From positions 1-64,000 of the forward strand of contig JAIOYR010000009.1 of NCBI GenBank assembly GCA_021740995.1: 64,000 nt of DNA, read 5' to 3'. A program made the position numbers and the translations under genes. This DNA is from Taibaiella sp. Lineage in GTDB: Bacteria; Bacteroidota; Bacteroidia; Chitinophagales; Chitinophagaceae. Under the pieces are notes generated by a model, which saw nothing but the letters and a program-made list of their open reading frames with translations, searched no databases and was not told the origin of the DNA. Position 1 is the stretch's first letter. Each line of letters starts with the position of its first letter. Shown piece after piece: positions 6,492-51,748 of the stretch.

Positions 6492-6523
6492 AAGACCGCC
6501 CTGTATTGCTACAGGGCGGTCTT
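6492..6523 (-). terminator. Intrinsic terminator of the RND efflux operon
   Basis: A perfect 14-bp stem (left arm AAGACCGCCCTGTA, 6492-6505; right arm 6510-6523) with a 4-base loop. In the minus-strand transcript it is followed by seven U (6487-6493). It lies 24 bases past the RND pump stop codon. Confidence 0.93.
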
Positions 6524-6546
6524 GGATATAGTATCAATCGTTTACT

Positions 6547-36264: not shown

Positions 36265-36641
36265 TGTACAATTTAACTCAAATATAAGGTTGGACACTGA
36301 AATAATATAAACCCCACATACAAAAACTCCCACCCTATCTGTGACTCTTTGAAGGCGGAACGAAGGGGACTCTATCTTCAGAATAAACCATAATACACCT
36401 ATTGTATAAATCAGTCAGCAGCCCAAACGGCAAAAACACACCCTTATAATCACGCACACCACCCAACAAATCCAATCTAATATGTCCTAAAATCTCCCAA
36501 AAAAACAACAGAAACCGCACTTGGGTGGAGGCGGGGTAAGCTATAATGCGTAAGTGATAGAACATCAAAGAATTAACCCCGAAAAAAAATCTATGATATA
36601 CTCGTAGCTGTATATGATAGTGCGAAAAACGTAGTATCATA

Positions 36642-36682
36642 AAAGTGCAATTTGCCAAAGTGCAAATAGGGTATCACCTTTG
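36642..36682 (+). promoter_or_regulatory. Candidate promoter of the phage-particle operon with a direct repeat
   Basis: TTTG (36651-36654), 20-base spacer, CACCTTTG (36675-36682; one mismatch to TAnnTTTG), 26 bases before the first ATG. The direct repeat AAAGTGCAA (36642-36650 and 36657-36665, 15-base period) straddles the TTTG box, the place for an activator or repressor. The rest of the 444-base gap 36265-36708 holds nothing I can support. Confidence 0.5.
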
Positions 36683-36708
36683 TGTGAGCAAACAAAGAAA
36701 TCCCTATC

Positions 36709-37698
36709 ATGATTGACAAATTCAAGAAAATAGACAGACAATATGTGCTGTCTGACAGCTCGGTAAACGAGTATGGTTTCCGCCTTCTTACCTCCGGTTA
36801 CCAGATTGATTCCTTCCGCAAAAACCCTATAGGGTATTACATGCACCAGCGCGAAGATGGCATAGCCCTGAAGTGGGAAGACCTGCATATAAACGACGAT
36901 AAAGTAATAGGCACTCCCGTAGTGAACCTCGCAAACAGCAGGGGAGAACAAACCTGCAACGAAGCCGAAAACGGCTTTCTGAATGCCGCATCGGTAGGGC
37001 ATATAGTAGTGCTGGAATACAGCATGGACAAAGAAATGATGCTGCCGGGGCAAACCGGACCCACCATAACAAAGTGGTATAACAAGGAGTGCAGCCTGGT
37101 AGATATTCCCGGCAACTGCAATGCGCTCACCCGCCTGTATGATGTGAATGAAAATATGCTGAACCTGGTGGACATGAATATAGGCAAGCCACTGACACAG
37201 ATGCCCAAAAGCACCATTGCACAACTGAATGAGACGCTGCAACTGAGCGACAACAGCAATGAAAATGAACTGGTGCTGACGGTGCAAAATCTGGTGGCAA
37301 AAACACAGCATCTGGAAACAGAAAATAAGGCACTGAGTGCCGACAAACACAAACTGCAACAACAACTGGATGAGATAAACAACATTCGCCGGAAGTATGA
37401 AATAACTGCTCTGCTGGACCGCGCACTGGAAGATAAAAAGATAACTACTGAGCTACGGGGCAAACTGGCTGCAGACTATGCCGCAAACCCGGAAGGACTA
37501 AAAGCCCTGCTGGCGGCAATGCCTGCCTACCGCACCATAGCAGAGCAACTAAACAGCCAGCGACCAGACATGGCAGAAGCACAGTGGGAGTGGGATGACT
37601 ATGAAAAAAAAGACCCCGCGGGCAACAAACTAAAAGACCTGAGAGCGAACGACCCTGTGCGGTATAAAGAGTTGTTTGAGCGGAAGTTTGCGGCGTAG
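36709..37698 (+). CDS. Prohead serine protease fused to a scaffold-like coiled coil (Mu I-like)
   Basis: A 329-residue protein. Residues 1-140 have the herpes-type prohead protease layout: His in GYYMHQRED (about 46) and Ser in LNAASVGH (about 95) fit the catalytic His and Ser of the family ('VSxGF' strand). Residues about 175-230 are a strong coiled coil (NLVAKTQHLETENKAL and on), followed by a helical tail, as in scaffold domains that the protease later removes. It should mature the capsid encoded 358 bases downstream. The catalytic assignment is by position and motif, not by alignment. Confidence 0.75.
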   Translation: MIDKFKKIDRQYVLSDSSVNEYGFRLLTSGYQIDSFRKNPIGYYMHQREDGIALKWEDLHINDDKVIGTPVVNLANSRGEQTCNEAENGFLNAASVGHIVVLEYSMDKEMMLPGQTGPTITKWYNKECSLVDIPGNCNALTRLYDVNENMLNLVDMNIGKPLTQMPKSTIAQLNETLQLSDNSNENELVLTVQNLVAKTQHLETENKALSADKHKLQQQLDEINNIRRKYEITALLDRALEDKKITTELRGKLAADYAANPEGLKALLAAMPAYRTIAEQLNSQRPDMAEAQWEWDDYEKKDPAGNKLKDLRANDPVRYKELFERKFAA

Positions 37699-37770
37699 AC
37701 CTGTAACTACATCCCACTAATATCAGCAACTTGAGATAATAAAACGGCACGCAAAAATATTCCACTCAAA

Positions 37771-37975
37771 CCTGCCTACCGCAGGCAGGGACGCAAAGAC
37801 TCATAGTTTGTGAACGCTACACAATTCCGATAGCTATCGGAAGCAAAGCAACTAAAATCCACGACGAATTTTAATGTCTATTGGTCTTACAACGTGTACT
37901 AAAACGTTGCAATACGCATACAATACCACAAACGTACAGCATCACTCCCCCCCCGAATTCCGATAGCTATCGGAA
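37771..37975. repeat. Cluster of intergenic palindromes between protease and capsid genes
   Basis: The 358-base gap holds a hairpin CCTGCCT / AGGCAGG (37771-37777, 37783-37789). It also holds two identical palindromes TTCCGATAGCTATCGGAA (37825-37842, 37958-37975), each within AATTCCGATAGCTATCGGAA followed by GCAA. These are host-type dispersed repeats, not phage coding sequence. They sit exactly where head genes might have been lost. Confidence 0.8.
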
Positions 37976-38056
37976 GCAATGGAGTATTTCTTTCCTGCAG
38001 ATACTCCAGGATAATTTCTACAAGTCCTTATTCAATCACCAAACCAATATATAAAC

Positions 38057-38971
38057 ATGGCAATCCAAAAAGAGATCTGGCAAGACCACATCGAAGGCAA
38101 TCTATTTAAGAACAATGAGTTCTTACTGGCATCAACCGACGCAAGCCAATATGTGCTGCAAGGAAAAGTAGTGCATATACCACAGGCCGGCGCACTGGCT
38201 ACGGTAGTAAAAAACCGCTCGTCTGTACCGGCAACAGTAGTGCAGCGCACAGACACAGACATCACCTATGTGCTGGACGAATTTACCACCGACCCCATTC
38301 TGATTCCCAATGCAGAAACGTTTGAGCTGAGCTACAATAAGCGCGAAAGTGTACTGGGTGAATATGAGTCGTCATTGCGCCAGACCATAGCAGACAATCT
38401 GCTGATAGACTGGAGCCCGTCCGGGTCAGAGGGTATGATAATCCGCACTACCGGTGTATCTACAGCAAGTCACCTGGCAGACACCACCGGCAACCGAAAG
38501 AAGTTCACCGTGAATGACCTGAAAAATGCACAGTTGCAGCTGAACAAACAAAACGTGCCGATGGAAGGCAGGTATGCACTTATCAGTGCCGATATGTTTC
38601 AGCAGTTGACTGATGATATGTCAGCAACACAATACCGCGACTTCAGTGCTGCATACGATGTAAAAGACGGAGTACTGGGCAGGCTGTTCGGATTCAATAT
38701 AATGATGCGCGGCAATGTGGTAAGCTATGACAATGAAGTGCTACCTGCGGTAAATGCCTATGGTGCAGCCGCAGACGAACCAGACAATGATGGTGTGCTG
38801 TGCTGGCAGATAAGCGCTGTAGAGCGCGCGCTGGGACAGATAACATTCTTTGAGCGCATAGGCGACCCAACCTACTACGGCGACATATACAGTGTAGGTG
38901 TGCGTATGGGCGCACGCAAACGCCGCAGCGATGCCAAGGGCATAATAGCAATAGTGCAGGCTGCAGTATAA
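38057..38971 (+). CDS. Major capsid protein (HK97-fold type)
   Basis: A 304-residue protein. The N-terminal arm IQKEIWQDHIEGNLFKNNEFL is followed by the E-loop/P-domain pattern of phage coat proteins: VVHIPQAGALATVVKN, then SYNKRESVLGEYE. The A-domain is like that of Bacteroidota phage coats (MEGRYALISADMFQQL; LGRLFGFNIMMRGNVV). The C terminus ends with YYGDIYSVGVRMGARKRRSDAKGI-type strands (in parts). The length is ordinary for a capsid without a cleaved delta domain. It could be a nanocompartment shell, but the adjacent protease-scaffold and tail genes favour a phage-like head. Confidence 0.8.
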   Translation: MAIQKEIWQDHIEGNLFKNNEFLLASTDASQYVLQGKVVHIPQAGALATVVKNRSSVPATVVQRTDTDITYVLDEFTTDPILIPNAETFELSYNKRESVLGEYESSLRQTIADNLLIDWSPSGSEGMIIRTTGVSTASHLADTTGNRKKFTVNDLKNAQLQLNKQNVPMEGRYALISADMFQQLTDDMSATQYRDFSAAYDVKDGVLGRLFGFNIMMRGNVVSYDNEVLPAVNAYGAAADEPDNDGVLCWQISAVERALGQITFFERIGDPTYYGDIYSVGVRMGARKRRSDAKGIIAIVQAAV

Positions 38972-38981
38972 AAACAGTGAA

Positions 38982-39254
38982 ATGCATACCGAGATAAAAA
39001 TATGGATACTCATTGCGGCGGCGGGCATCATGGCATCTGTGCTGGGCTTTATAATAAAAGTGATAACAGACCAGGTAATAAAAAGGCTCGACGATATAGT
39101 AACAGAGCTGAAACAACTGACACATGCGACCACTATACAAGGGCAACAGATACAAGGCCTGAAAGAACAGGAAGCCATGATACACCGCCGCCTCAATGAA
39201 CATTCTGAAAGAATACATGCATTGGAAGCCAATGCAATCAATCACTATCAATAA
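38982..39254 (+). CDS. Small membrane protein with one TM helix and a coiled coil
   Basis: Ninety residues. Residues 6-28 are hydrophobic (IWILIAAAGIMASVLGFII), followed by a long heptad helix (VIKRLDDIVTELKQLTHAT, QQIQGLKEQEAMIHRRLNE). This form is seen in spanin/Rz-like and holin-accessory proteins and in phage proteins of unknown role. It follows the capsid gene by 10 bases and precedes the next gene by 10. A lysis or release role is possible but not shown. Confidence 0.7.
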   Translation: MHTEIKIWILIAAAGIMASVLGFIIKVITDQVIKRLDDIVTELKQLTHATTIQGQQIQGLKEQEAMIHRRLNEHSERIHALEANAINHYQ

Positions 39255-39264
39255 ACCTACAACT

Positions 39265-39696
39265 ATGATTTGTACAAAAATGAGAAGCCGGTTCAAACGG
39301 GTGCTGCAACAGTTTGATAAATATGTAGATGAGCATATAAATACCGCTCTACAAGTAACAACGGCGCTAAAACAAATGTTATCATCGCCGGTAGCAGATG
39401 TAGTAACTGCACTCATACCCGGTGAGCTGGATAACCTGCTGCGGCAGCGAATACTTATAGCACTGGAGCGAGCAATAACTATATTGACAATAACTGAGCA
39501 GTGCAAAAAATATGCCGGCACCAAGGAAAAGGTATGCTGCTTTATAGAACAGCTAAAAGTGCAGTCGCCTGAGCTGCAGGATGCCTTATTGCAAAAACTG
39601 GCGGCCCTGATGACCAGTGAGCTCGATGGCAACAGGCTAAGGCAAAGCCTTTATGACTTGTATACTCAGGCCAAATATGCTGCATCGAAGCAGTAA
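39265..39696 (+). CDS. Helical protein of unknown function between capsid and sheath genes
   Basis: A 143-residue, almost fully helical, basic protein (VLQQFDKYVDEHINTALQV; LDNLLRQRILIALERAITI). No membrane anchor is clear. The ATG at 39265 is chosen because it clears the previous stop; a longer frame from 39196 would overlap the upstream gene by 59 bases. In related phages, neck or head-completion genes lie at this place, but no such family is recognised here. Confidence 0.65.
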   Translation: MICTKMRSRFKRVLQQFDKYVDEHINTALQVTTALKQMLSSPVADVVTALIPGELDNLLRQRILIALERAITILTITEQCKKYAGTKEKVCCFIEQLKVQSPELQDALLQKLAALMTSELDGNRLRQSLYDLYTQAKYAASKQ

Positions 39697-39849
39697 GTGG
39701 AACGTGGGGAGCAACTGGAATAGGAAAACACAATAGGTACAACGTCGCTTGTCTAAGGAAATCGTAAATACCTGCACCCCACATTAATTATCCATATGCT
39801 CCTGAAAATGTAGTTTACTTTATTTGAAACCACTATCAAACCCTATCTA

Positions 39850-40071
39850 ATGAAAAACAAACAAGATGCTGCAAAAAAGCTCTACTTCACTAGTGATCAT
39901 CATGCCTTTCTGGATGAAGAACGAGCTCGGCGACATGCAAAGCACCTGAAAGACAAAACCATAAATACCCTATCGCTACAGGAAGCAGAAAAACAGCTGG
40001 CTGCAATAACAAAAGTGAGCAGCAATGACGAGTTGGAAATATTTCTGGATGAGCTAATCAATGCAGCGTAA
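39850..40071 (+). CDS. Small charged helical protein
   Basis: Seventy-three residues, starting MKNKQDAAKKLYFTSDHH. It has a middle rich in Arg/Lys (EERARRHAKHLKDK) and an acidic amphipathic C-terminal helix (SNDELEIFLDELINA). It ends 48 bases before the sheath gene. No family recognised. Confidence 0.6.
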   Translation: MKNKQDAAKKLYFTSDHHAFLDEERARRHAKHLKDKTINTLSLQEAEKQLAAITKVSSNDELEIFLDELINAA

Positions 40072-40119
40072 GCGAGCGGTCGCAATTAAGATTTTATAAA
40101 GAACTAAACAAAAACAGAA

Positions 40120-41301
40120 ATGGGAAGTGTAAACATAACACTGGCTAATGGCCAGCTCGGAGCCACGCTCCAAACAAATGACGGAATCGCCGGCTTGGTA
40201 GTAACCGGACAGTCTGAAGCCGGCTACGTAGCCGGCACCCCTATACTGGTAACAAGTATGGCAGCAGTAGCTGCGGCCGGCATTACCAATGCCACTAATG
40301 GCTTTGCCATAAAACAAGTGGAAGAGTTTTATAAACAGGCTGGTGCCGGAGCACAACTCTACCTGATGCTGGTGCTACCAACAATGACCATAGCCGAAAT
40401 GGCAGACATATCGCTACCCAACGGAGCAAAGAAGCTACTTGACTATGCCGGTGGAAAAATAAAGATTTTGGGTCTGGTAAGTAACGATGTGGCTGTGGGA
40501 GGCGCGGAAGGCCCTATAGTAGTAGAACATGCGCTGAATGCTGATGTGTATACTGCAGCAGATAACATGGCTGTACTGGCTGAGGCGTATTTTGAGGCTC
40601 ATACGCCTTTCCGGGCTATAATAGGCGGCACAAGCTACACAGGTGTTGCTGCAGACCTTACGGATGTATCCTTAGGAACCACCAACAACCGCACGGCAAT
40701 ACTTATAGGCGATACTGCGGCCGGTGCAGGCGCATGTGTGGGCCTGGCACTGGGTGTGGCATCATCTGTGCCCGTGCAACGAAAGATAAGCAGGGTTAGA
40801 ACCGGTGCGCTTAAAAGCACCACAGCATATGTAGGCACAGTGACGGCAGAAGCTGCTGCAGAATCGCTGGCAGTGATAGCAGAGCGTGGATTTATCACCT
40901 TCACTACATACTCTAATACCAGTGGCTACTTTTTCTCCGGCGACCCTATGTGCACGGCTACCACAGACGACTATAGCATGCTGGCAAGGGGCCGGGTAAT
41001 AGACAAAGCACACATACTGGCTTACACCACCTTTGTGCAAATAGTAGACGATGAAGTGCCGGTAAATGAAGATGGCACTCTGGATGCCGGCTTCTGCAAA
41101 TGGCTAAGCCAACAGATTGTAAATCAGATAAACAATACAATGACCGCGGCTAAGGAAATAAGCAGTGTAAGCTGTTTTATAGACCCTGCACAAAACATAC
41201 TGAGTACCAATCAGCTAAACGTGGTGATAGGCATTATTCCGGTAGGATACGCTACACAAATAGAAATCAGCCTGGGATTTAGTACTCCGGCAAACGGATA
41301 A
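40120..41301 (+). CDS. Contractile tail sheath protein (DUF2586 family)
   Basis: A 393-residue sheath protein, the contractile outer tube. It has the N-terminal NITLANGQLGATLQTNDGIAG and the internal VEEFYKQAGAGAQLYLMLV. The Ala-rich GDTAAGAGACVGLALGVASSVPVQRKISRV region is divided here by domain. The C-terminal tail-sheath core (DDEVPVNEDGTLDAGFCKW; VGYATQIEISLGF) closes the protein. DUF2586 is the sheath family of Mu-like and Bacteroidota contractile elements. It directly precedes the tube gene, as in P2 FI-FII. Confidence 0.88.
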   Translation: MGSVNITLANGQLGATLQTNDGIAGLVVTGQSEAGYVAGTPILVTSMAAVAAAGITNATNGFAIKQVEEFYKQAGAGAQLYLMLVLPTMTIAEMADISLPNGAKKLLDYAGGKIKILGLVSNDVAVGGAEGPIVVEHALNADVYTAADNMAVLAEAYFEAHTPFRAIIGGTSYTGVAADLTDVSLGTTNNRTAILIGDTAAGAGACVGLALGVASSVPVQRKISRVRTGALKSTTAYVGTVTAEAAAESLAVIAERGFITFTTYSNTSGYFFSGDPMCTATTDDYSMLARGRVIDKAHILAYTTFVQIVDDEVPVNEDGTLDAGFCKWLSQQIVNQINNTMTAAKEISSVSCFIDPAQNILSTNQLNVVIGIIPVGYATQIEISLGFSTPANG

Positions 41302-41358
41302 AATAAATCCTGACAGCAAAACACAATAAAAATTCTATAAAACCAAAAAAACACTACA

Positions 41359-41790
41359 ATGCCAACAATACCATTTTTTGACAGTAAAGACTGCGAGTGG
41401 GCAGACATGACCGTGATGATAGCCGGTGCTACACTCACTAAAATACGTGGCTTAAAGTACAAGGCCACTAAAGAAAAACAACTGCTGCATGCCGCCGGCG
41501 ATGAGCCTATAAGTATACAGGGCGGAAACCGGGTGTATGATGGACAGATAAAGGTCCTGAAAGGTGCGCTGGATGATATGAACAGAGCCGCCAGAGCAGT
41601 CGGTGGAGACGACATATTGGATCTCCAGTTCGACATAGTTATAACCTATAAACCTAAAGGCACCAGAGCCCTGCAAACAGATACGCTGATAGGAGTAGAG
41701 GTAAAAGATTTTGAGAAAGGCTGGGAACAGGGAGCGAAAAGCATGGATGTAACACTGCCTATAGTGTTTATGAAGTTGATTAACGGCTAG
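41359..41790 (+). CDS. Tail tube protein
   Basis: A 143-residue beta-rich protein. FFDSKDCEWADMTVMIAGA is its first half, and a central KYKATKEKQLLHAAGDEPISIQ loop segment (in parts) leads to a final VKDFEKGWEQGAKSMDVTLP. Size and the 'grgdkp' like loop (GDEPISIQGG) match inner-tube proteins of contractile tails. Its place straight after the sheath gene and before the chaperone is the canonical one. Confidence 0.82.
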   Translation: MPTIPFFDSKDCEWADMTVMIAGATLTKIRGLKYKATKEKQLLHAAGDEPISIQGGNRVYDGQIKVLKGALDDMNRAARAVGGDDILDLQFDIVITYKPKGTRALQTDTLIGVEVKDFEKGWEQGAKSMDVTLPIVFMKLING

Positions 41791-41808
41791 TTATTGGCAA
41801 GAAGAAAA

Positions 41809-42156
41809 ATGCAAAAAACTAAAACTAAAAAAATGCAAAAAGAAACAATAAAACTTGTGGGCCAGGCAACCGAAGCCCAGATAAATGAGTGGAAAGCTAA
41901 GAACAAGTATGGCATCTATGCTATAGAGGTAGACGGACATATAGGCTACTTCAAAAATCCAGGAAGAAACGAACTGAACTGCGCAATGAGTAAGGCAGAT
42001 AAGGACAAAGCACTTGAAATTTTTGAAGAGCTGGCTAATGTAACCTTTCTCGGCGGCAGCGAAGAGATACTAAAGAATGATCAGATGTTTATAGGAGTGT
42101 GTCAGGAGCTGAAAGTGAAACTGGACGGCAAAAAAGCTCATCTGGTAAACTTATAG
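41809..42156 (+). CDS. Tail assembly chaperone (gpE/gpG-like), frame-0 product
   Basis: A 115-residue protein beginning MQKTKTKKMQKETIKLVGQA. It has an NKYGIYAIEVDGHIGYFKNP domain and a helical end (DKDKALEIFEELANV). Its position between tube and tape measure is that of P2 E or lambda G chaperones. The stop at 42154 is preceded, 18 bases upstream, by codons AAA-AAA within an A6 run (42130-42135). An open -1 frame overlaps the last 58 bases, which suggests a frameshifted long form. ATG 41809 or 41833 are both possible starts. Confidence 0.78.
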   Translation: MQKTKTKKMQKETIKLVGQATEAQINEWKAKNKYGIYAIEVDGHIGYFKNPGRNELNCAMSKADKDKALEIFEELANVTFLGGSEEILKNDQMFIGVCQELKVKLDGKKAHLVNL

Positions 42157-42326
42157 CGGAGTCGTGCGGGGGGCCAGCTCACGATTCCATAGGATATCTG
42201 GAAACACTGCTTGAATATTACCTGCCTGGCATTAATCACAAAGTATTGAGTGATGAAGCATTTGCACAAAAACTGGCTCACCTGCAATTCATAAGGCAGC
42301 AAATATCTGAGCGATCTTACGACTGA
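42099..42326 (+). CDS. -1 frame extension of the tail chaperone (gpGT/E'-like)
   Basis: This open frame lies one base back from the chaperone frame and overlaps it from 42099 to 42156. It encodes a helical tail (SIGYLETLLEYYLPGINHKV; FAQKLAHLQFIRQQISER) with no good ATG (a GTG at 42099 only). By analogy with P2 E/E' and lambda G/GT it is best read as the C-terminal part made by -1 slippage at the A6 run 42130-42135. The extension would be about 64 residues. Confidence 0.65.
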   Translation: MSGAESETGRQKSSSGKLIAESCGGPAHDSIGYLETLLEYYLPGINHKVLSDEAFAQKLAHLQFIRQQISERSYD

Positions 42327-42706
42327 GCATTGAGTAGCCTTTCTTTCTGAATGGCAAACTCATCGTCTGTAATGACTCCCTCCTTTCTCAACTCATTCAG
42401 TTTAGTCAACTCTTCTGCAACAGAAAGTGCTGGCGCACTTGCAGCTGCACGCTCCAGCATTTTTTCTTTGTATTCATCATCCTTCAATTTGGGAGAGTTG
42501 AAAATAAATATGAAACCAATAATTGGTGTCAGGAAAAAGGAAATAAAAAAAGCTTTCGAAAACCCTATACTTCTTTCTTTACCCAACCGTGCAGCTAATA
42601 GACACACAACGGTCTGCAAACAAATGTATGAGCGCAAATAAGATGAAAGTAAATCGGCACTAAAAACGAAAACAATAAACAAAACTGCAAAAACTGTTGT
42701 CAGCAT
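42317..42706 (-). CDS. SHOCT-domain membrane protein on the opposite strand (moron-like)
   Basis: A 129-residue protein with two hydrophobic stretches: residues 1-37 (TVFAVLFIVFVFSADLL and on) and 52-68 (AFFISFFLTPIIGFIFIF). The C-terminal SHOCT helix pair reads ELTKLNELRKEGVITDDEF followed by AIQKERLL. It is the only minus-strand gene within the particle operon and overlaps the chaperone extension by 10 bases. Such insertions between tail genes usually serve the host or protect the element rather than the virion; its function is unknown. Confidence 0.75.
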   Translation of the reverse strand: MLTTVFAVLFIVFVFSADLLSSYLRSYICLQTVVCLLAARLGKERSIGFSKAFFISFFLTPIIGFIFIFNSPKLKDDEYKEKMLERAAASAPALSVAEELTKLNELRKEGVITDDEFAIQKERLLNAQS

Positions 42707-42919
42707 TGTTGCATCTCTTTTTTTGCGTTGCTTCGGCTTGGCTTTGCATGATAGGTGCTACTTTTTGAAGCATCAAAATAAGCAGAATTGGCGAATACGC
42801 AAAACTGCCAACCAACTACTGAACCAACAACTATCTGATTAGAAAATGCGGGTATGCCAGTTTCAATATTACCTGTATCGAAAAAATGAAGCAAAACTTC
42901 TTCAAATTATATAGCGTAT

Positions 42920-44185
42920 ATGAAATCAACACCCAAAGAAATAGATAAAGACAAACAGGAAAAAACAATCCCTATTGCGGAGGTGCACAGTCTGATTTCG
43001 GCGCTGGGTAATACGATACAATCGATACAACGGCTAAACAACACATTAAGCGCCATAGCCCATATCCGCAAGACAACGAGCAATCAAACCAATAGATATT
43101 TCCCTACTGATACTGTAACAATACCTGTTGATTCAATTCAGACCTTTCTGTTTGAAGATGAAAGCAAAAAAGAGGAAAACAGAAATGTCAGGAAACGGTC
43201 GCAGTACGACAAATATTACAAATCAGACGAAATCAGCTCCAATATAGAGCGTATAAAAAGTATTGCTGAATTAACAGAAAGTGCTGAGCGCATTGCAAAT
43301 CTATTAAGCGACATGCACCCTACAATAAAAGACCACATAAAGCCATTAACTACCATTAGCAAGGTAGCTAAAGTTACTGCCAGTGAAACAAGGATTTTAA
43401 ATACTATCGTTAATGGAGCCGGCTTAGTAGAAGGCGCAATGGCTGCCGATGAACTAATAACCGGTATTGTAGCACTTACCGAGGTCCTTTCAGGGCCACC
43501 TGGCTGGGCGCTGTTTCTTGGTACGCTGGCAGCAAGTGGAGTAGCAGCGTACCTTGATAAAGAACAACACGAAAAGGAAGCGAATCAAGCCAACACCGAA
43601 AACAACAAAAACACCAAACGCGCATTACGCACATTCGGAATGTCATCGACAGAATCAGACGACTACATTTTACAAAGGCGAAAGCGATTGGACAATATAA
43701 ATATAGTACCAGACCAGGATGAACGTGATTGGAAAATGACCTACAACCCGGCAGCAGAATTCACAAAAAGATATGGCAAACATGCTTACGATCTATCCAT
43801 ACCATTTCCGGTAGGAGTAGCTGATAACACCTATCATCCACAAAATGTATTGCCAAACACAATTGCAGCACAACCCATAGCACCTGAAACAGGCAAAAGC
43901 TATATTTCGCAGACCAATGCGCTGCATACCCGCACGATGAGTGCAGGGCTAACAAACGGGATGAAGGGATTTGAAAGCGCAGCAACTAAAGAAATTTTGC
44001 AAGTCAAAGCCTATGACCTGAAGCACCAAACAAATACTGCCGAAATGAAGAACCTGGCGATACTGGAAGTATCTACATTATTGCCAAAAAGCTCAAACGA
44101 AGGAAAAAAGAACCCTGCACACATCTATTTTGCACCAGGTAACAGAACAGAAAGTAGACAAAAAATTGGGCCGAAAGCAAAGTAA
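42920..44185 (+). CDS. Short tape-measure-like protein
   Basis: A 421-residue protein with a charged N-terminal helical region (residues 1-150). A hydrophobic, Ala/Gly-rich centre at about 165-215 (AADELITGIVALTEVLSG; WALFLGTLAASGVAAYL) and a long polar C-terminal part follow. The hydrophobic middle and the location between the chaperone and the gpD-like hub are those of tail tape measures. It is short; with the usual relation of length to tail length, the tail would be roughly 60 nm. No lysozyme or peptidase domain is visible. Confidence 0.6.
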   Translation: MKSTPKEIDKDKQEKTIPIAEVHSLISALGNTIQSIQRLNNTLSAIAHIRKTTSNQTNRYFPTDTVTIPVDSIQTFLFEDESKKEENRNVRKRSQYDKYYKSDEISSNIERIKSIAELTESAERIANLLSDMHPTIKDHIKPLTTISKVAKVTASETRILNTIVNGAGLVEGAMAADELITGIVALTEVLSGPPGWALFLGTLAASGVAAYLDKEQHEKEANQANTENNKNTKRALRTFGMSSTESDDYILQRRKRLDNINIVPDQDERDWKMTYNPAAEFTKRYGKHAYDLSIPFPVGVADNTYHPQNVLPNTIAAQPIAPETGKSYISQTNALHTRTMSAGLTNGMKGFESAATKEILQVKAYDLKHQTNTAEMKNLAILEVSTLLPKSSNEGKKNPAHIYFAPGNRTESRQKIGPKAK

Positions 44186-44208
44186 TCAATGTGCACATCA
44201 ATAAATCA

Positions 44209-44325
44209 ATGATAGAACACTTCACAATTAATACAAGTTCCGGATCTACAGGAATAAATGAATTCAAAACTAAAGTAGAAGAGGTCTTGCTCGAAATTCT
44301 TAACAGTGCAAACGTAATACAGTAA
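44209..44325 (+). CDS. Very small ORF between tape measure and DUF6046 genes
   Basis: Thirty-eight codons from ATG 44209: MIEHFTINTSSGSTGINEF followed by an amphipathic helix KTKVEEVLLEILNSAN. It fills the gap exactly, ending 4 bases before the next ATG. Too short to assign; coding is supported by position and by protein-like composition only. Confidence 0.45.
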   Translation: MIEHFTINTSSGSTGINEFKTKVEEVLLEILNSANVIQ

Positions 44326-44329
44326 TACC

Positions 44330-44986
44330 ATGGCAGAAATATCATTCAGTTTAGCAACGCTCTTCGAGAAAACTTTTGGTTACAAGACCAGAGCCTTTGA
44401 ACCTCAATTCAGGCAATTAAAGGGCCACAACCCACCCGGCCGAAAAGAACAAGGTGCAGCTGGCTCTCCCTACTACGCCAATGACGCACTGGGCACAGAA
44501 TACTATATGCCTGTTACACTCACCTACCCTGATATGAGCTCGAGGCAAGAACCACCACCAGGTGTAACAGCGACAAACAACAATTCATTTTCAGTGCATA
44601 AAAAATGGAATTTACCTTATCCTATTATATCTATAGAAAGTAAAAAAACAATTGTAGAAACTGCATTGACGGAACGAAGAGGTACTGTTAAAGAATTGAT
44701 AGCGATTAAGGACTATGAAATAACAATTAAAGGATTTCTGATTGCTCCTACACACGAATTCCCGGAACAGGATGTAACTACACTACGTACTATATATGAG
44801 CAAAACACAGCCATATCGATACAATGTCCGCTTACGGATATCTTTCTGTTAAGGCCTGACAGAAGCGGTAGCGACCAGGTAGTAATCAGCGAATTAAAAT
44901 TTCCGGCTATTGTCGGTATAAAAAACATAAGACCATACGAACTGAAAATGCTGAGCGATGAACCTTTTAATCTCTTATCTATATAA
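44330..44986 (+). CDS. DUF6046 tail/baseplate protein
   Basis: A 218-residue protein with YMPVTLTYPD, then NLPYPIISIESKKTIVETAL and TVKELIAIKDYEITIKGFLI, and a C-terminal RPYELKMLSDEPFNLL. These are DUF6046 hallmarks as I know them. The family sits between tape measure and hub in Bacteroidota contractile elements and is probably a baseplate-tube junction protein (a place taken by gpU/gpX or gp53-like proteins in other phages). It is separated from the hub gene by 2 bases. Confidence 0.8.
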   Translation: MAEISFSLATLFEKTFGYKTRAFEPQFRQLKGHNPPGRKEQGAAGSPYYANDALGTEYYMPVTLTYPDMSSRQEPPPGVTATNNNSFSVHKKWNLPYPIISIESKKTIVETALTERRGTVKELIAIKDYEITIKGFLIAPTHEFPEQDVTTLRTIYEQNTAISIQCPLTDIFLLRPDRSGSDQVVISELKFPAIVGIKNIRPYELKMLSDEPFNLLSI

Positions 44987-44988
44987 CT

Positions 44989-46014
44989 ATGTTTGTTCTC
45001 AACAGCGAAATTACCATCGGCACCTTTCGGTTTAGCGGTGTACACGATGTGCTCATTAAAAAGAGCGTACATAGTATTGTAGAAACCGCAACAATAAAAA
45101 TACCGGCGATAGCGGCGATTGTATCAAACCGCAAAGTATCCGCAGAACGGATTACAACTGCGACACAATTTACAGAGGGTGATGCTGTAACAATAAAACT
45201 GGGCTACAACGGCGACATGAAAACCGAATTTAGCGGATTTGTGAAACACAGAAAGCTGGATATGCCCCTTGAAATAGAATGTGAGGGATACAGCTGGCTG
45301 CTGCGGAAAAACATCGCAAAAATTAAAAATAGCAACCTAACCCTTAAAGAACTACTGAGTACTGCAGTGGCAGATTTGCAGGGCAAAAACAAGATAACTG
45401 TGCAGTGCGAGGTGGACCTGAATATCCTCAACATCAGCCTGGATAATCCCACGGGTTTTGATGTAATCAAACATATCTCAAAATGTAGTGATGACAACAT
45501 TTCTTGCTTTTTTATAAAGCCCGATACTCTTTGGTGTGGCACACTATACACTGATGTAACCAATGATAAGACGACCATTGCTATAGAAAAAGTAAGGTGT
45601 AAACCGGGGCATAACACTATCAGGAAAAACACACTTTTGCCTCACAACACAGCAGGAAAACCCGGCAACGTACTATACAGCAGAAAACGTGGAGATGGTG
45701 AAATTATAGCAGGGAATTCTACGGTTGCTACTATTGAAAAAACGAAACATACCCTTACACTCAACCACATAAAGAATGCAGCTGAACTACAATTACTGGC
45801 AAATGAAAAAGCATACAGAAACACCTATACCGGCTACGAAGGCTCGTTTGTTTCCTTCCTTCAACCATATGCAGCACCCGGATATGTTGCATATGTAAAA
45901 GACAATACACACCCGGAAATGGATGGCAGTTACCTGATTGAGAGCACTGAAGTGCATTTTAGCATAAAGGGTGCGCGCAGGATAATAGAACTGGGAATTA
46001 GAACCGAAAAATAA
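44989..46014 (+). CDS. Baseplate hub protein (gpD / late control D-like)
   Basis: A 341-residue hub with the N-terminal barrel VHDVLIKKSVHSIVETATI and TQFTEGDAVTIKLGY. The second barrel contains FSGFVKHRK and ECEGYSWLLRKNI. Residues about 265-341 end with YIESTE-type strands (GSYLIESTEVHFSIKGARR). It trimerises around the spike as the central hub that the needle crosses. Order DUF6046-hub-spike-wedge is canonical. Confidence 0.85.
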   Translation: MFVLNSEITIGTFRFSGVHDVLIKKSVHSIVETATIKIPAIAAIVSNRKVSAERITTATQFTEGDAVTIKLGYNGDMKTEFSGFVKHRKLDMPLEIECEGYSWLLRKNIAKIKNSNLTLKELLSTAVADLQGKNKITVQCEVDLNILNISLDNPTGFDVIKHISKCSDDNISCFFIKPDTLWCGTLYTDVTNDKTTIAIEKVRCKPGHNTIRKNTLLPHNTAGKPGNVLYSRKRGDGEIIAGNSTVATIEKTKHTLTLNHIKNAAELQLLANEKAYRNTYTGYEGSFVSFLQPYAAPGYVAYVKDNTHPEMDGSYLIESTEVHFSIKGARRIIELGIRTEK

Positions 46015-46021
46015 AACCCAT

Positions 46022-46570
46022 ATGACAAAGAACACAGCGAAAATCAAAGCAGGAATTACATTGCTGGCACAAAAGCCGTACGAAATACTCAGCGGCACTG
46101 TAGTTGCAGGGAGTGTAGATACAGAAGCAAATACAATAAGTGTACAAACCGGAAACGACCGCCCTCCTGTAGAGGACGTTTTACTCACTGCAGTAACTGG
46201 TGAAAATAGTGGCCTCATAATAGTGCCTAAAGAAGGAAGCCATGTTATTATCGGCAGTATTGATGGTCCCGGTCAATGGGTAGTGCTTAAGGCAAGCGAA
46301 CTGGCACAAGCCTCGATAAAAATTGGCACTGCCACTTTCCTGACAAATGAAAACAGCATTAAGATAGAAAGTAGTACTGCGGTACTGGATATAGGCAACC
46401 TTATAAAAATCAACACAGCGGGCGAGAGCCTCTTTACACTATTAAACGACCTTATTACAGCTATCACATTAATTACAGTTGGCACACCCTCCGGGCCCAG
46501 TACACCTCCTGTCAATGTAGCGTCATTCAGCGCATTGATACCCAGACTAAGTAATCTATTGAGTGCATAG
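46022..46570 (+). CDS. Baseplate spike / gpV-like protein
   Basis: A 182-residue protein with an OB-like fold at residues 20-85 (GTVVAGSVDTEANTISVQT; GLIIVPKEGSHVIIGSID). A repetitive beta segment follows (SIKIGTATFLTNENSIKIES; AVLDIGNLIKINTAGESLF) that reads as a short triple-stranded needle. The tail is Pro/Thr-rich and hydrophobic. It has no PAAR motif, so the tip may be a separate or absent protein. It follows the hub by 7 bases. Confidence 0.8.
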   Translation: MTKNTAKIKAGITLLAQKPYEILSGTVVAGSVDTEANTISVQTGNDRPPVEDVLLTAVTGENSGLIIVPKEGSHVIIGSIDGPGQWVVLKASELAQASIKIGTATFLTNENSIKIESSTAVLDIGNLIKINTAGESLFTLLNDLITAITLITVGTPSGPSTPPVNVASFSALIPRLSNLLSA

Positions 46571-46594
46571 TTACTCCCACAAACATCCTATTTT

Positions 46595-46894
46595 ATGGCT
46601 AAACAAATGACAGACATTGGTCTTAATGACAGCGAAGACATTACAATTTTTTTCGGTGACTTTCTGGTCGCCGAAAGCACTGCACAACACCAGCAGCAGC
46701 TATTACTCAACACAAAAGGCGATTTTAAAGAAAACCCTACGGTATGTGTGGGTGCATTAGGGTATCTGGATGATGAGCATTATCAGAATCTTATCCGTGC
46801 AGTAAATGTAGAGTTCACCAGAGATGGAATGGAAGTAGCAGAAGTATCGCTCTCGAATGAAGGAGTAATTAAAAGTGATGCTGTGTACACATAA
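46595..46894 (+). CDS. Baseplate wedge protein gpW/gp25-like
   Basis: Ninety-nine residues. TDIGLNDSEDITIFFGDFLV is followed by QQQLLLNTKGDFKENPTVCV and a GALGYLDDE turn, the gp25-like pattern 'l.t.kGe....P..G'. The C-terminal strand is REGME-VAEVSL-like. Its location between spike and gpJ homologue is as in P2 (V-W-J). gp25-type wedges nucleate sheath assembly. Confidence 0.78.
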   Translation: MAKQMTDIGLNDSEDITIFFGDFLVAESTAQHQQQLLLNTKGDFKENPTVCVGALGYLDDEHYQNLIRAVNVEFTRDGMEVAEVSLSNEGVIKSDAVYT

Positions 46895-46933
46895 GAATCA
46901 GCTCAAAACTTAAACCCTATGAAACTATAATCT

Positions 46934-47878
46934 ATGAAAACAGTAAGAACACAGCCCAACCAAAGTTTGCTGGATATCATACTCACTGAGTATGGCTCGC
47001 TGGAGGCAGGCATGCAAGTGGCTGCAGCTAACAATATTGACATCAGCAGCATACCCATGACCGGCAGCGTACACAATTTGCCGATAGTGCAGTCCGGCTC
47101 AATAGACTTTGAAGGTACTGGCTATCTGCGGCAAAACAGTGTAGTAATTGGAACGCTGGCACTACCCTTACTTGAGTATATGATAGTTTTAAAACCTGTA
47201 CTTGCCATAGTTCCTAATGTAGTCGGCGACCCGCACATTATAGGCTACTATTCTTACGACTTTACAGAATCTCCGGGGTTCATTCACATCAATCCCTTAG
47301 CCAGTGCTTATCCTTCTGACAACAGAGTATACTATGAAACCGAAGAACGTTATCTTACTGGTCACCCACCAGAATCCTCGTTGCCACTTAGTGTTACTGC
47401 GATGTCTGCTGCATCTATTCCCTACAAACTGACATGGACCGTAGGACTTGGGTACATGATGGTGTGGAGCGATATTACATTTCCTGTTGTAACAGGTACG
47501 TTCGAAGACGTAGAGGGCAATAAAGCATACTATGCTCCTCTGACTATACTAGACAACACCACACAGGATGTAATAGAACATTTGATGGGCGACTTGTCTG
47601 TAGCGTTGGTGTCGGCTACAGCCTCACTCGCTACCTTCCGGCTAACCCGTTCTCATATTCCTATCCTGTTGGCCAACTTCAGGGAACACACTATGGAATG
47701 GCTGGAAGCCGCTACCACAGGCACCCCTGATCCACTGGATCCGTTAAATACCAACAAGACAATAATCACAGTAGGTGCCGGTGTACATACTGTGGGTATA
47801 AAGACTACTTATCTTTTTCCCGGAGGCACACCATCCTATCCTGCGTCAGCATTTACGATGGTCCTTAAGGTTCTCTAA
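46934..47878 (+). CDS. LysM-like baseplate-associated protein
   Basis: A 314-residue protein. Residues 1-55 look like a LysM module (QPNQSLLDIILTEYGSLEA, then AANNIDISSIP). The rest is beta-rich with no known enzyme motif and ends in a GVHTVGIKTTYLFPGGT segment. LysM proteins in tails (P2 gpX) join hub and tube or touch peptidoglycan. Here the LysM is at the N terminus of a larger protein. The remaining 260 residues are unassigned. Confidence 0.6.
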   Translation: MKTVRTQPNQSLLDIILTEYGSLEAGMQVAAANNIDISSIPMTGSVHNLPIVQSGSIDFEGTGYLRQNSVVIGTLALPLLEYMIVLKPVLAIVPNVVGDPHIIGYYSYDFTESPGFIHINPLASAYPSDNRVYYETEERYLTGHPPESSLPLSVTAMSAASIPYKLTWTVGLGYMMVWSDITFPVVTGTFEDVEGNKAYYAPLTILDNTTQDVIEHLMGDLSVALVSATASLATFRLTRSHIPILLANFREHTMEWLEAATTGTPDPLDPLNTNKTIITVGAGVHTVGIKTTYLFPGGTPSYPASAFTMVLKVL

Positions 47879-47901
47879 TTCTATCTATTAAACCTACTAT
47901 C

Positions 47902-48732
47902 ATGGCACGAACAATTGCAGTTATACAACAACAAATAATAGAGACAAAAAATGCAGACCCAACATTAAGCTCCTATGAATGGAGCGACAGCAAGGTGGCC
48001 ATCTGGCGACTATGGACCTATGTAATAGCATTCTGTATATGGACGCTCGAGAACTTGTTTGACTACCACAAAATAGAAGTATCAGATATAATTTCTACCC
48101 AGAAACCACATACATTGCAATGGTATGTGCACAAAGCGAAACTATTCCAGTATGGCGATTCACTCCCTGCAAATTCCGACATTTATGCCACAACATCCAC
48201 CGACCCGGCAATAGTCATTGTGAAATACGCAGCTGCAGTAGAGCTTGCCAACATGGTTCGAATCAAGGTGGCAAAAGAAAATGCCGGAACACTGGAAAGC
48301 CTGTCTATTGCAGAGCTTGCTGCCTTTACAGGTTACATGAGCCGCATAAAGGATGCAGGTGTCCGGCTGCAACTCACCAGCGGCGACCCGGACAATCTTC
48401 AGTTGGCATTATCTGTCTACTACGATCCACTCGTACTTAGCAGCACTGGCTCCCGGATTGATGGGGCTTCTTTCACGCCTGTTATGGATGCTATTAATTC
48501 TTTTCTAGCTGACCTGCCCTTTAATGGTGTCTTTGTTCTAAACGAACTTATCGTTGCATTACAGGCAATTGATGGTGTGAAGATTGGTTACATACTGAGC
48601 GCCCAGGCAAACTATGCAGCTACACCTTACTTACCTATAACTATTAAGTACACCCCTGATGCGGGTTACATGGCACTCGATGAGACCTACTTCAATGCAA
48701 ACGTTACCTACACACCTTACGCCGCAGCATAG
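47902..48732 (+). CDS. Baseplate J-like wedge protein
   Basis: A 276-residue protein. The N terminus has SYEWSDSKVAIWRLWTYVIA and FCIWTLENLFDYHKIEVSD, followed by a GDPDNLQLALSVYYDPLVLS core and a FVLNELIVALQAIDGVKIGY C-terminal piece. The last part is the usual '...l...i..v.GV...' of gpJ/gp47 wedges. It would link to the gpI-like protein downstream to make the baseplate wedge. Confidence 0.7.
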   Translation: MARTIAVIQQQIIETKNADPTLSSYEWSDSKVAIWRLWTYVIAFCIWTLENLFDYHKIEVSDIISTQKPHTLQWYVHKAKLFQYGDSLPANSDIYATTSTDPAIVIVKYAAAVELANMVRIKVAKENAGTLESLSIAELAAFTGYMSRIKDAGVRLQLTSGDPDNLQLALSVYYDPLVLSSTGSRIDGASFTPVMDAINSFLADLPFNGVFVLNELIVALQAIDGVKIGYILSAQANYAATPYLPITIKYTPDAGYMALDETYFNANVTYTPYAAA

Positions 48733-48793
48733 CATGTACTGATGTATGACTGTCCATCCTTTTTCAATTCTATATCTTTTTAAGACTACAACA

Positions 48794-49297
48794 ATGGGCT
48801 TCTTTGATATTAACTACGACACACTCCGTGTGCAATTACTACCCGTACGATTGCGAAAATCCGTTATGAAAGCCTGGCTGCGCTGCCTGCTCATACCTGT
48901 AAAGTGGTTGCACAATGTGTTCATGATAGACCGGGAAAGTAATCTATATTATCTCGCCCACAATAGCCAGATAGTATACCTGGAAGCTGTACTCAACGAC
49001 GTCTTTGACCCTATATCCAGAGGTATATTTATTGAAGATGGGCTGTACGAAGACCCCCTGTTTACCTACCTGATACCGGAAGAACGACCGCTGTGGCTTG
49101 GACTAAGCAGCGAATCAGGTACTGTTGGCTATACTGTACCGATCGCACTCTTCACAGATGCAGAAACTTCTTTACTAGGCAATGCCTTTATCGTTAATGT
49201 ACCGGGTGCAGTATCCTTTGATACAGACAGAATGAAAGCTCTTATCAACCGATACAGGCTTGCCGGAAGAAGCATTTATCAGATAGTAATCTATTAG
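48794..49297 (+). CDS. Tail protein I-like baseplate protein
   Basis: About 167 residues from ATG 48794 (MGFFDINYDTLRVQLLPVRL). It shows a conserved-looking LLIPVKWLHNVFMIDRESNL and a LEAVLNDVFDPISRGIFIED helix typical of Bacteroidota gpI-like wedge proteins. The position between J-like and fibre genes is that of P2 I. A longer frame from 48746 starts with a weak codon and is not favoured. Confidence 0.68.
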   Translation: MGFFDINYDTLRVQLLPVRLRKSVMKAWLRCLLIPVKWLHNVFMIDRESNLYYLAHNSQIVYLEAVLNDVFDPISRGIFIEDGLYEDPLFTYLIPEERPLWLGLSSESGTVGYTVPIALFTDAETSLLGNAFIVNVPGAVSFDTDRMKALINRYRLAGRSIYQIVIY

Positions 49298-49346
49298 TTC
49301 TTTGCGTTTCCTCCTTGCATTTTAATCACTAAATTTTATTCCGAAC

Positions 49347-50186
49347 ATGAAATCAATTGACTTTACACAACCCGGTGGTTTTCCGCTCACACAAGACCAG
49401 CTCCATTATCTGCAGCAGGCATATACCGAAAGTACCCGCGCTCTGGCGGCTATGGGTGGAGATAGCTCCACTCCATACACTATCAGCGGAATGACCGTAA
49501 CCAACCCTGCTACCGGAGATTACACCATTACGGATGGTTGGTTTTATTACAACAACGAAATGGTACGCTGCTTAGCCGGCAGTATTACCGGAGCCAGCGG
49601 CTCTTCCGATGCATTTATTGTTATCACAAATACTGCAGCACCACTTGTTTACAACGATGGCAGCACACCCAATGTAGTGCTCGACCAAACTGCTTCTTTG
49701 CAGGTATTGCCTTCCGGCACTCCTACCGATGCTACCCATTTTCTACTGAGTGCACTACGCAGATTTGGCAGTGGTTTTGGTGCTGCTAACCGCGAAGCAG
49801 CATGGAAGACCCTGGCAATAAGCACGCCCGCGGCTGATGGGGGCGTTACAGGCACAGTCTATTACAAAAAAGACCACACCGCCAACACCCTGCACATTCG
49901 CGGACTACTGACCGCAGCTAATGCCCAGAACTTTGCTGCCTCCCCCGGCACACTGTTTTATCTCATGGGTACGCTGCCTGCAGGTTATGTGCCTAATAAC
50001 ACGGCACAATTTACTGCTCAAAGCTTTGGTGCAGCATCTATTAAAGATGATCTTGGCATAGCTTGGATAAAGCAAATTAATTTTGGAATTAACAATACAG
50101 GGCAGTTATTTGCTAACTGGATTAAACCAGACATTGCAGTCGGGGGTTACGGCGTTAATTTTAATAGTATTATATCGCTCGACTAA
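49347..50186 (+). CDS. Short tail fibre/tip protein
   Basis: A 279-residue protein. N-terminal anchor FTQPGGFPLTQDQLHYLQQA; middle rich in Ser/Thr/Ala/Gly beta (YTISGMTVTNPATGDYTITD); C-terminal globular beta domain (TVYYKKDHTANTLHIRGLL). The layout is anchor-shaft-head, but the shaft is brief, so it is a short fibre or tip, with the head as receptor binder. No chaperone gene follows; the next gene, mreD, is convergent 4 bases away. Confidence 0.65.
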   Translation: MKSIDFTQPGGFPLTQDQLHYLQQAYTESTRALAAMGGDSSTPYTISGMTVTNPATGDYTITDGWFYYNNEMVRCLAGSITGASGSSDAFIVITNTAAPLVYNDGSTPNVVLDQTASLQVLPSGTPTDATHFLLSALRRFGSGFGAANREAAWKTLAISTPAADGGVTGTVYYKKDHTANTLHIRGLLTAANAQNFAASPGTLFYLMGTLPAGYVPNNTAQFTAQSFGAASIKDDLGIAWIKQINFGINNTGQLFANWIKPDIAVGGYGVNFNSIISLD

Positions 50187-50190
50187 TACC

Positions 50191-50736
50191 CTATATTCTT
50201 GAAGTATCCTGTCTTGTAAAGAGCAGCAGATATACGATTATGAACATCATAGATGTCAGCGTCGATGCCGTTGTTTTGAGCAGCAACATCCCTACGTTCG
50301 AAAGGTTCCACATCTCTATAGAAAAAAACAAAAGATGGTGCAGCACTATCAGGAAACCACTGTATACCAAAAAAGGCATCCAGCCCATGTTTTTGATAGA
50401 GGGCTGCATACCAGTATACTCCGACAGGTTTCTGGGCAGCAGTGCACTCAGCACATTGGTGCGCAGGTAAGCTATAAGCACCGTGGCACATGCGTGCATG
50501 CCTGCAGTATTGCTAAATGCATCAATTGTTGTGCCCAATACAAATCCGGACAGGAGCAGTCCCCATACGGGCATTTCGAACGGAAGCAGCAACAAAAACA
50601 ATGGATAAATCAACGGAATAAATACGGGAAACCCCGATGGTTCGCTCCACCAGCGCAGGGTTATCTTGTTGAGTATAAGCGCCTGAAGCAGTACGATGAT
50701 GCAAAACCGTAAAATATTTTTCAGATATACGTTCAT
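50191..50736 (-). CDS. mreD: Rod-shape determining protein MreD
   Basis: A 181-residue inner-membrane protein with five to six helices (CIIVLLQALILNKITL; FIPLIYPLFLLLLPF; VLGTTIDAFSNTAGMHA). The Asp-Ala-Phe and Asn positions in that stretch and placement after mreC identify it. It works with MreB and MreC in the elongasome. Its stop faces the fibre gene with a 4-base gap. Confidence 0.85.
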   Translation of the reverse strand: MNVYLKNILRFCIIVLLQALILNKITLRWWSEPSGFPVFIPLIYPLFLLLLPFEMPVWGLLLSGFVLGTTIDAFSNTAGMHACATVLIAYLRTNVLSALLPRNLSEYTGMQPSIKNMGWMPFLVYSGFLIVLHHLLFFSIEMWNLSNVGMLLLKTTASTLTSMMFIIVYLLLFTRQDTSRI

Positions 50737-50785
50737 ACCGTTACCGTTTTTTTCTCTTTTTTCTAAAATAATTAAAGACTATACA

Positions 50786-51643: not shown

Positions 51644-51748
51644 TTCGTATCAGGAATTTGGGAATTTGGAATTAGTAATCCGGATTTTGGTAGAAGGTGC
51701 TATTTGTCCCAACTTGTCAAATCCCAAATTCTTAATCCCCCAAAAAAA

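Follow-up and report, generated by a model that had tools for sequence, protein, structure and literature searches.

A Mu-like contractile particle dispersed over three chromosomal loci in Taibaiella: a candidate gene transfer agent-like element

The stretch of DNA analysed here (the window: positions 1 to 64,000 of contig JAIOYR010000009.1, from a Taibaiella metagenome-assembled genome, MAG, hereafter G000) carries eighteen genes of a phage-like contractile particle at positions 36709-50186, among them a capsid and a maturation protease, and no recognisable terminase or portal. How would such a head be filled, and with what? An earlier note on this DNA had proposed a head loaded with something other than packaged phage DNA, a gene transfer agent (GTA)-like system split over two loci, or a Mu-like prophage broken not long ago by deletion of its left half. 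We consider it fairly probable that these genes are the particle module of a domesticated Mu-like, contractile-tailed phage that occupies three chromosomal loci, is vertically inherited in the genus and in related genera, and packages host DNA in the manner of a GTA. Judging from gene content, packaging of host DNA is most likely, and we file the element as a GTA-like candidate, not as a proven GTA.

Packaging genes on a second contig

Profiles of the large terminase subunit (TerL) and of the portal, built from relatives and searched across the whole of G000, each gave a single match on contig C13 (TerL at C13:2881-4560, E 3.8e-268; portal at C13:6469-7599, E 1.5e-190, a match that overruns the stop of the gene by 21 bases, the portal gene at 6469-7578 itself being open) and none in the window, which bears out the absence of both genes there that the earlier note had reported. 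The packaging locus consists of the following genes.

C13:1890-2327, small terminase subunit, TerS (phrog_4151, DNA binding protein, E 6e-19)
C13:2881-4563, TerL (phrog_38, E 8.1e-65)
C13:4765-5349, secreted-type protein
C13:5545-5982, gp36 adaptor (E 8.8e-7)
C13:6003-6365, opposite strand, membrane-type protein
C13:6469-7578, Mu-type portal (Portal_Mu, E 4.8e-66)
C13:7721-8224, tail-terminator-like protein (Phage_tail_terminator, E 0.013, below the family cut-off)

The terminator-like gene is followed by prfA and other host genes. A helix-turn-helix (HTH) is still detectable in TerS, both with PF13518 (HTH_28, E 8e-4, below the family cut-off) and with phrog_4151 at the value given above. TerL shows candidate motor and nuclease motifs that are invariant in 11 aligned relatives and that we take to be Walker A, Walker B and nuclease residues. 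Packaging gene order was identical in 14 of the 14 genus loci compared (four further fetched packaging contigs stood outside the comparison), and two extra genes are lodged in this locus, the secreted-type gene in 13 of the 14 and the membrane-type gene in all 14, with neither in any of the compact Mu-like prophages of the same table.

The genome-wide search for portal and terminase, a check that the earlier note had itself suggested, settles the choice between a split and a deletion. Recent deletion of a prophage's left half is not supported because TerS, TerL, adaptor and portal, together with the MuB-Gam block described below, are present elsewhere in the genome and are kept in most of the genus, with TerL and capsid under purifying selection. 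A cargo other than DNA, proposed on account of a missing motor, is likewise rejected, since a terminase with candidate motor motifs is present on C13 and no such cargo is needed. The GTA-like split itself fits, with three loci found in place of the two proposed.

A third locus with early and regulatory genes

The third locus, found with MuB of a compact prophage as the query, lies on contig C6 and comprises an XRE/S24 repressor on the other strand (Pfam S24, E 1.9e-7), a MuB-like ATPase (PHROG phrog_296, E 8.9e-34), a protein with a Bac_DnaA_C domain (DnaA domain IV, E 6.5e-10), a protein of about 105 amino acids (aa) and Mu Gam (E 7.5e-26), in that order. The same order recurs in every one of the 10 loci fetched, although contig edges truncate two, and the divergent starts of repressor and MuB are 193-351 bp apart in all eight loci measured, with no MuA between them. 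Distant MuB homologues occur in 30 of the 35 genus genomes, mostly in single copy. An S41 protease gene flanks the early locus in L241, L242, L243 and L247; L242 (G000:C132:1-5570) is a second, diverged early-locus copy with its flank in G000 itself, 53-88% identical by gene, which may stem from sister-species contamination or from duplication.

Descent with the host

Trees were built from 50 of 51 TerL and 37 of 38 major capsid protein (MCP) sequences, G136 and G149 being left out for an internal stop within the coordinates used (one sequence of each protein). In the TerL tree, 39 non-compact sequences (support 80) with a 35-sequence core (support 99) stand apart from the prophage sequences, and a 10-species clade that includes G000 has support 99 in both the TerL tree and the tree of the host protein CarB. 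Two loci, G161:C398 and G146:C17, carry the default GTA label in the trees yet group with compact prophages, and were left out of the Mantel tests. Distances correlated with those of CarB for TerL (r 0.75, 34 genomes) and for MCP (r 0.75, 26 genomes), also within the genus (0.56 for TerL, 25 genomes; 0.64 for MCP, 22 genomes), with 0 of 5000 permutations reaching the observed value in each case; TerL also correlated with capsid (0.60, 29 genomes, 1 of 5000 permutations). Ratios of non-synonymous to synonymous substitution (dN/dS), taken from 13 hand-chosen pairs out of all possible pairs, were 0.030-0.143 for TerL in 10 of 12 pairs (two saturated), 0.011-0.076 for MCP in nine of ten (one saturated) and 0.006-0.033 for CarB, finite in seven of 11. 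No internal stops occur in genus MCP and TerL among the matches listed. TerL and capsid are under purifying selection and descend together with the host gene carB, and the long-term vertical inheritance under purifying selection by which GTAs are recognised is thus found here.

Distribution and layouts among relatives

The capsid search covered 60 genomes, 35 of the own genus (G000 included) and 25 of other genera, and found the capsid in 28, all within the genus (28/35 against 0/25). TerL was found in 31 and portal in 32 of the 35 genus genomes; G033 has two portal matches, one of them with a MuF match alongside; its portal is a weak match (E 5e-27) and looks like that of another prophage. 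Removal of G027, whose sole TerL lies in a compact element, leaves non-prophage TerL in 30 of 35, with G022 represented by a contig-end fragment and G001 by two pieces. Co-occurrence tables compiled from the TerL and MuB searches of these genomes gave 29 with both non-prophage TerL and a MuB homologue, one with TerL only, one with MuB only and four with neither (Fisher 4.7e-4), an agreement in 33 of 35. At a completeness of at least 90% (26 genomes), 24 have both and two, G027 and G033, have neither (Fisher 0.003). Because the only capsid homologue of G027 (54%) is of the compact type, within the compact element, and G033 has no capsid match, the loci of these two genomes were lost or missed together. 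The compact Mu-like element of G027 itself (L214 and L215, on G027:C41) has early-type genes and a TerL open reading frame (ORF) of 616 aa; neither MuF nor MuA is matched in this genome, and the element may have moved independently towards immobility as well.

Distances between TerL and capsid vary widely, from 4-6 kb in G004, G006, G013, G016, G020 and G028 to 18.9 kb in G034, 21.8 kb in G009, 23.3 kb in G011, 23.7 kb in G024, 85.6 kb in G029 and 123.6 kb in G002, all on single contigs; in the two linked cases inspected, G020 and G013, a helicase-like gene and another gene lie between the modules. G002 has all three loci on one contig, with 264 kb from portal to MuB homologue, and portal, TerL, particle and early loci are present together on single long contigs in G002 (G002:C1) and likewise in G004 (G004:C44).

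The family-wide TerL search (294 genomes, 101 genera) gave matches in 37 genomes and 26 genera, prophage-type copies included, and non-compact packaging loci without a MuF match also occur in at least the genera g28, g56, g85, g92, g102, g112 and g115. The cultured isolate Flavipsychrobacter stenotrophus RB1R16 carries a particle locus on NZ_PPSL01000002.1, and G273 (g112; terminase on G273:C11) is taken to be this isolate. A scan of named genomes returned 77 loci. The near ones are of the own lineage, in records named Flavipsychrobacter, Taibaiella, Chitinophagaceae and uncultured Bacteroidetes, among others, and many of the remaining ones (38-58% identity) belong to Mu-like prophages, for instance of Bacteroidales, Capnocytophaga and Flavobacterium. 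In many of these prophages TerS, TerL, gp36 and Mu portal, often with MuF, form a divergent packaging module directly before the protease. Among the best 80 of 122 viral-contig relatives in IMG/VR, the 14 near ones (L345-L358, 74-92% identity) are fragments of this particle locus, all at most 13.8 kb long, and have no packaging gene at E 1e-4, which is consistent with chromosomal pieces that were called viral.

The particle locus in the window

All eighteen genes lie on the + strand and are open, as the earlier note had placed them. Its gene labels fared unevenly: capsid, sheath and hubs have strong family support, protease and tube moderate and spike and wedge weak support, and the gp25-like, J-like, chaperone, tape-measure and fibre genes gave no named family match, so that their labels follow gene order and conservation. 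The block is more than a chance assembly because it is conserved gene by gene in relatives. Its features, all on the + strand except the last, are as follows.

36592..36641, +, operator-like array of three heptamers (TATGATA/TATGATA/TATCATA, spacing 21-22 bp) upstream of the protease
36642..36708, +, putative late promoter and leader (ATTTGCC ... CACCTTTGTG), predicted from sequence
36709..37698, +, head maturation protease/scaffold, Mu I-like (phrog_11321, unnamed, E 1e-60; phrog_328, head maturation protease, E 8.7e-5; Mu-like_Pro E 2.4e-5, just below the family cut-off)
38057..38971, +, major capsid protein (phrog_267, E 9e-32; Phage_capsid_2, 27.4 bits, cut-off 25)
38982..39254, +, p03, small conserved protein (by conservation)
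39196..39696, +, p04, conserved protein whose listed homologues are shorter ORFs
39850..40071, +, p05, small protein shared by some of the relatives
40120..41301, +, contractile tail sheath (DUF2586, E 1.3e-48; phrog_907, tail sheath, E 3.7e-35)
41359..41790, +, tail tube-like protein (phrog_9206, labelled major head protein, E 4.6e-22; phrog_4579, tail protein, E 8.9e-9)
41794..42156, +, tail assembly chaperone-like protein, by position
42351..42641, +, p09, small protein of patchy conservation
42920..44185, +, putative tape measure protein of 421 aa, by position
44330..44986, +, DUF6046 baseplate hub-like protein (DUF6046, E 3.1e-28; phrog_5233, baseplate hub, E 9.2e-15)
44989..46014, +, baseplate hub (phrog_4930, E 6.6e-48)
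46022..46570, +, spike-like protein (Phage_base_V, E 0.079, weak)
46595..46894, +, gp25-like wedge, named from its place and its conservation
46934..47878, +, J-like baseplate protein, by position
47902..48732, +, I-like wedge protein (phrog_38413, unnamed, E 6.5e-66; PDB baseplate component 9euf, E 0.0025)
48746..49297, +, p17, conserved late protein (by conservation)
49347..50186, +, putative tail fibre, by order and conservation
50191..52780, -, mreD-mreC-mreB, the chromosomal border outside the element, shared with several relatives

PDB profile searches with the gp25-like, spike-like and tube proteins, and the sheath search, returned nothing useful, and the window contains no tRNA and no Rfam match. 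Host genes such as mreD-mreC-mreB and the helicase-like gene were named by eye. Among the loci fetched from relatives, seven (L021, L022, L028, L052, L056, L166 and L173) likewise have mreD after the particle genes; in G282 packaging genes take its place. The region from tail chaperone to DUF6046, which would hold the tape measure, is 4.8-5.1 kb long in L030 and L062; elsewhere, among the loci measured, it spans 1.1-2.6 kb.

Promoters and the heptamer array

The predicted late promoter is presumably of the Bacteroidetes type. The same array of three heptamers, about 50 bp long, precedes both TerS (array at C13:1795-1844) and the protease (array at 36592-36641 in the window), in opposite orientation in G000, and its heptamer varies by species (e.g. 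TATGACA in G024). The motif TTATCCACA, which we take to be a DnaA box, precedes the array upstream of TerS in six of 11 species. In the 11 species in which both regions could be parsed (the TerS start could not be located in two of 13, and species with a faint array, such as G009 and G002, were retained), the mean local score of TerS against protease promoters was 23.5 within a species but 16.1 across species (0 of 20000 permutations), with the best within-species match spanning the array in seven of the 11; control comparisons with the early promoter were null (2214 and 4192 of 5000 permutations, eight species each). No array was visible by eye in those compact prophages whose TerS-protease gap was inspected, and the three array regions searched hold no inverted repeats of at least 12 bases.

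The array with an outward promoter-like end, as in the protease promoter, is also borne by six similar intergenic elements of about 180 bp in G000 (L327-L332), at these positions.

C3:9194-9243, C19:18583-18632, C29:12227-12276, C32:14911, C50:60267 and C87:44923, intergenic array elements

These six copies have no consistent neighbouring gene, and we claim no simple regulon for the array. A double-heptamer pattern occurs at 1-40 places per genome in the 12 genomes searched, against 0-3 for a control pattern. G010, G017, G021 and G034 have 19-40 double heptamers per genome against 0-2 for the control, and many of the copies listed for G021 and G034 are nearly identical to one another.

Phage functions absent from the own genome

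The earlier note had recognised neither MuF nor a transposase beside the particle genes, and profiles find neither in the whole of G000. The MuA profile was an alignment of two MuA-like proteins from compact prophages, adopted after PF09299 had failed to match any genome or control; neither protein has a Pfam transposase match, and the label MuA follows their position before a MuB-like ATPase together with residues that we take to be those of MuA. This profile matched three of 35 genus genomes (G009, G012 and G022), all of which also have MuF and a prophage-type TerL, and the MuF profile matched four of 35, three of them above the cut-off. GH108 was rejected as the lysis gene of the element, as it is not conserved and is absent from G000. 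In one compact prophage (L059:3488-4747), MuF also bears a PBECR2 nuclease-like domain; the domesticated loci have no MuF. In G009:C37, five closely similar 174-aa secreted-type proteins flank the compact prophage on both sides (L212 and L213).

Proposed mechanism and alternatives

Phage-derived capsid, tail and packaging genes are thus present in the host genome, and the gene content bears on self-transmission as well, with no MuA in G000, modules on separate contigs and a 264-kb span in G002. Among the marks of a Mu-like phage, MuB, Gam, Mu portal and gp36 are found, and MuA, MuF and one contiguous transposable genome are not. In the mechanism that we propose, release from the S24 repressor, probably triggered by DNA damage, would free the early operon, which would make an activator that switches on the packaging and particle loci. 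The DnaA-domain protein is a natural candidate for this activator because the N-terminal domain of the RcGTA activator GafA resembles the DnaA DNA-binding domain, as described in the excerpt of PMC6363796. The TerL motor would then pack host DNA into the head by headful, Gam may shield the DNA ends, and the particles would exit by lysis through genes not found here and contract onto kin cells to deliver the DNA. Without MuA and with dispersed genes, the element should be unable to multiply or spread as a phage does, as is the case for GTAs.

Several observations weigh against this reading. The 39-sequence TerL clade has a support of just 80, and TerL branches are several times longer than those of MCP. 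Three genomes at least 90% complete (G001, G008 and G032) have TerL and no capsid match, which reflects assembly gaps or decay. The best promoter match in G002, G009, G012 and G020 is the core promoter or a short stretch and not the array, and homogenisation of the six intergenic repeats could mimic promoter co-evolution. In four of the six unlinked cases TerL and capsid are 19-24 kb apart, and both might fit into one Mu-sized head, whose presumed size serves as our yardstick. Head completion without MuF is unexplained, and no lysis gene was recognised, the search having covered GH108 (none in G000, 10 of 35 genomes) and no other lysis family. In known GTAs TerS commonly shows no DNA-binding domain (excerpt of PMC11841831), a trait outside their definition; here TerS keeps a detectable HTH, so packaging might be site-directed.

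The main rival, to which we give a modest share of belief, is a PBSX-like headed bacteriocin that would package host DNA without delivering it, with a contractile tail that kills relatives and three loci kept for competition. Contractile-particle and packaging genes are both present here, and PBSX is described in the excerpt of PMC12946183 as evenly packaging host fragments of 13.4 kb, without injection and with tailocin action. A killing-only particle would not obviously need a strongly conserved TerL, although PBSX itself packages DNA. A more doubtful variant of a three-locus, host-regulated GTA supposes that its operator array spread as intergenic elements, which an HTH-bearing TerS could use as distributed packaging starts, the host thereby controlling which regions are exported.

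It is improbable that the element is a rearranged Mu-like prophage in slow decay that no longer makes particles and has been retained by chance or for a single part. The lack of a MuA or MuF match in G000, the scattered modules and two well-assembled genus genomes without domesticated copies would fit such decay, whereas the dN/dS values of 0.01-0.14, the absence of internal stops among the genus MCP and TerL matches listed, promoters that are alike species by species, and the shared flanks (mreD at the particle locus, the S41 protease at the early locus in the four loci named above) argue against it. Still less probable is a satellite mobilised by intact Mu-like prophages in the same cells, as related capsids and MuA-bearing prophages in three of 35 genus genomes might suggest, given that 32 of 35 lack a MuA match, so that a helper is usually absent, that the element keeps its own head-tail-packaging set and that its loci are tens of kb apart. 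Least credible is a chimeric assembly or binning in which C13 and C6 come from another organism, despite the MAG contamination of 4.61% and the second early-locus copy on C132, as TerL and CarB place G000 in the same 10-species clade and the single long contigs of relatives (G002:C1, G004:C44) carry all modules; on the evidence of these contigs we reject an artefact of the window or a MAG chimera.

Comparison with known systems

Few GTAs are known. The domesticated Mu-like element proposed here shares with RcGTA/CcGTA, Bartonella BaGTA, Brachyspira VSH-1, Desulfovibrio Dd1 and the Methanococcus VTA the host-kept head, tail and packaging genes, vertical inheritance, a distribution over several loci (at least 24 genes in five loci for RcGTA, in the excerpt of PMC10883770) and, as predicted from its gene content, a lack of self-transmission. 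It differs in its Mu-like contractile-tailed origin, in its host phylum, Bacteroidota, and in its retention of MuB, Gam and an S24 repressor, and of the TerS HTH, a DNA-binding domain being undetectable in the TerS of known GTAs in the excerpt of a review (PMC11841831). Its best families are the Mu portal and the DUF2586 sheath. R-pyocins, type VI secretion systems and extracellular contractile injection systems are characterised by the lack of capsid, portal and terminase, whereas here the capsid is in the window and portal and terminase are on C13.

The Mu-like prophages of Bacteroidota (G012:C67, G009:C37 and L059, and Porphyromonas phages such as BK068093) share capsid, TerL, portal, gp36, S24 repressor and MuB with the element, whose capsid is about 50% identical to that of the Porphyromonas phages; their packaging genes are divergent from the protease. 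Compact prophages carry MuF and gpG homologues (L055, L059, L274, L280 and L283), and MuA where it was sought (G009, G012 and G022), whereas in the element MuA and MuF were not found, two unrelated genes sit inside the packaging locus and the modules are split. Tape-measure candidates are 287-508 aa long in the element against 545-619 aa in three prophage-type elements.

PBSX of Bacillus subtilis is likewise a domesticated head-tail element and packages host DNA, but it belongs to a different host phylum and does not inject, and Faecalibacterium FpGTA is likewise a near-ubiquitous GTA-like element outside Alphaproteobacteria, podovirus-like and of Bacillota where the element here is contractile and of Bacteroidota (both as far as the excerpt of PMC12946183 describes them). 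No GTA of Bacteroidota is described in the part of the literature searched, judged by titles and the starts of abstracts. If the reading is true, a Mu-derived contractile GTA in Bacteroidota would represent an independent origin, kept by the genus and by neighbouring genera, with at least some of it present in a cultured isolate. It raises the question of what a phage loses (here MuA and MuF) and what it retains (portal, TerL, Gam, MuB, repressor) on its way to becoming a host tool, and the relatives, some with linked and some with unlinked modules, offer intermediate states. A group of environmental bacteria thus seems to have domesticated an old Mu-like virus, whose head, tail and packaging genes are inherited intact at three places without the transposase; this suggests that it serves to pack the cells' own DNA, perhaps for gene exchange.

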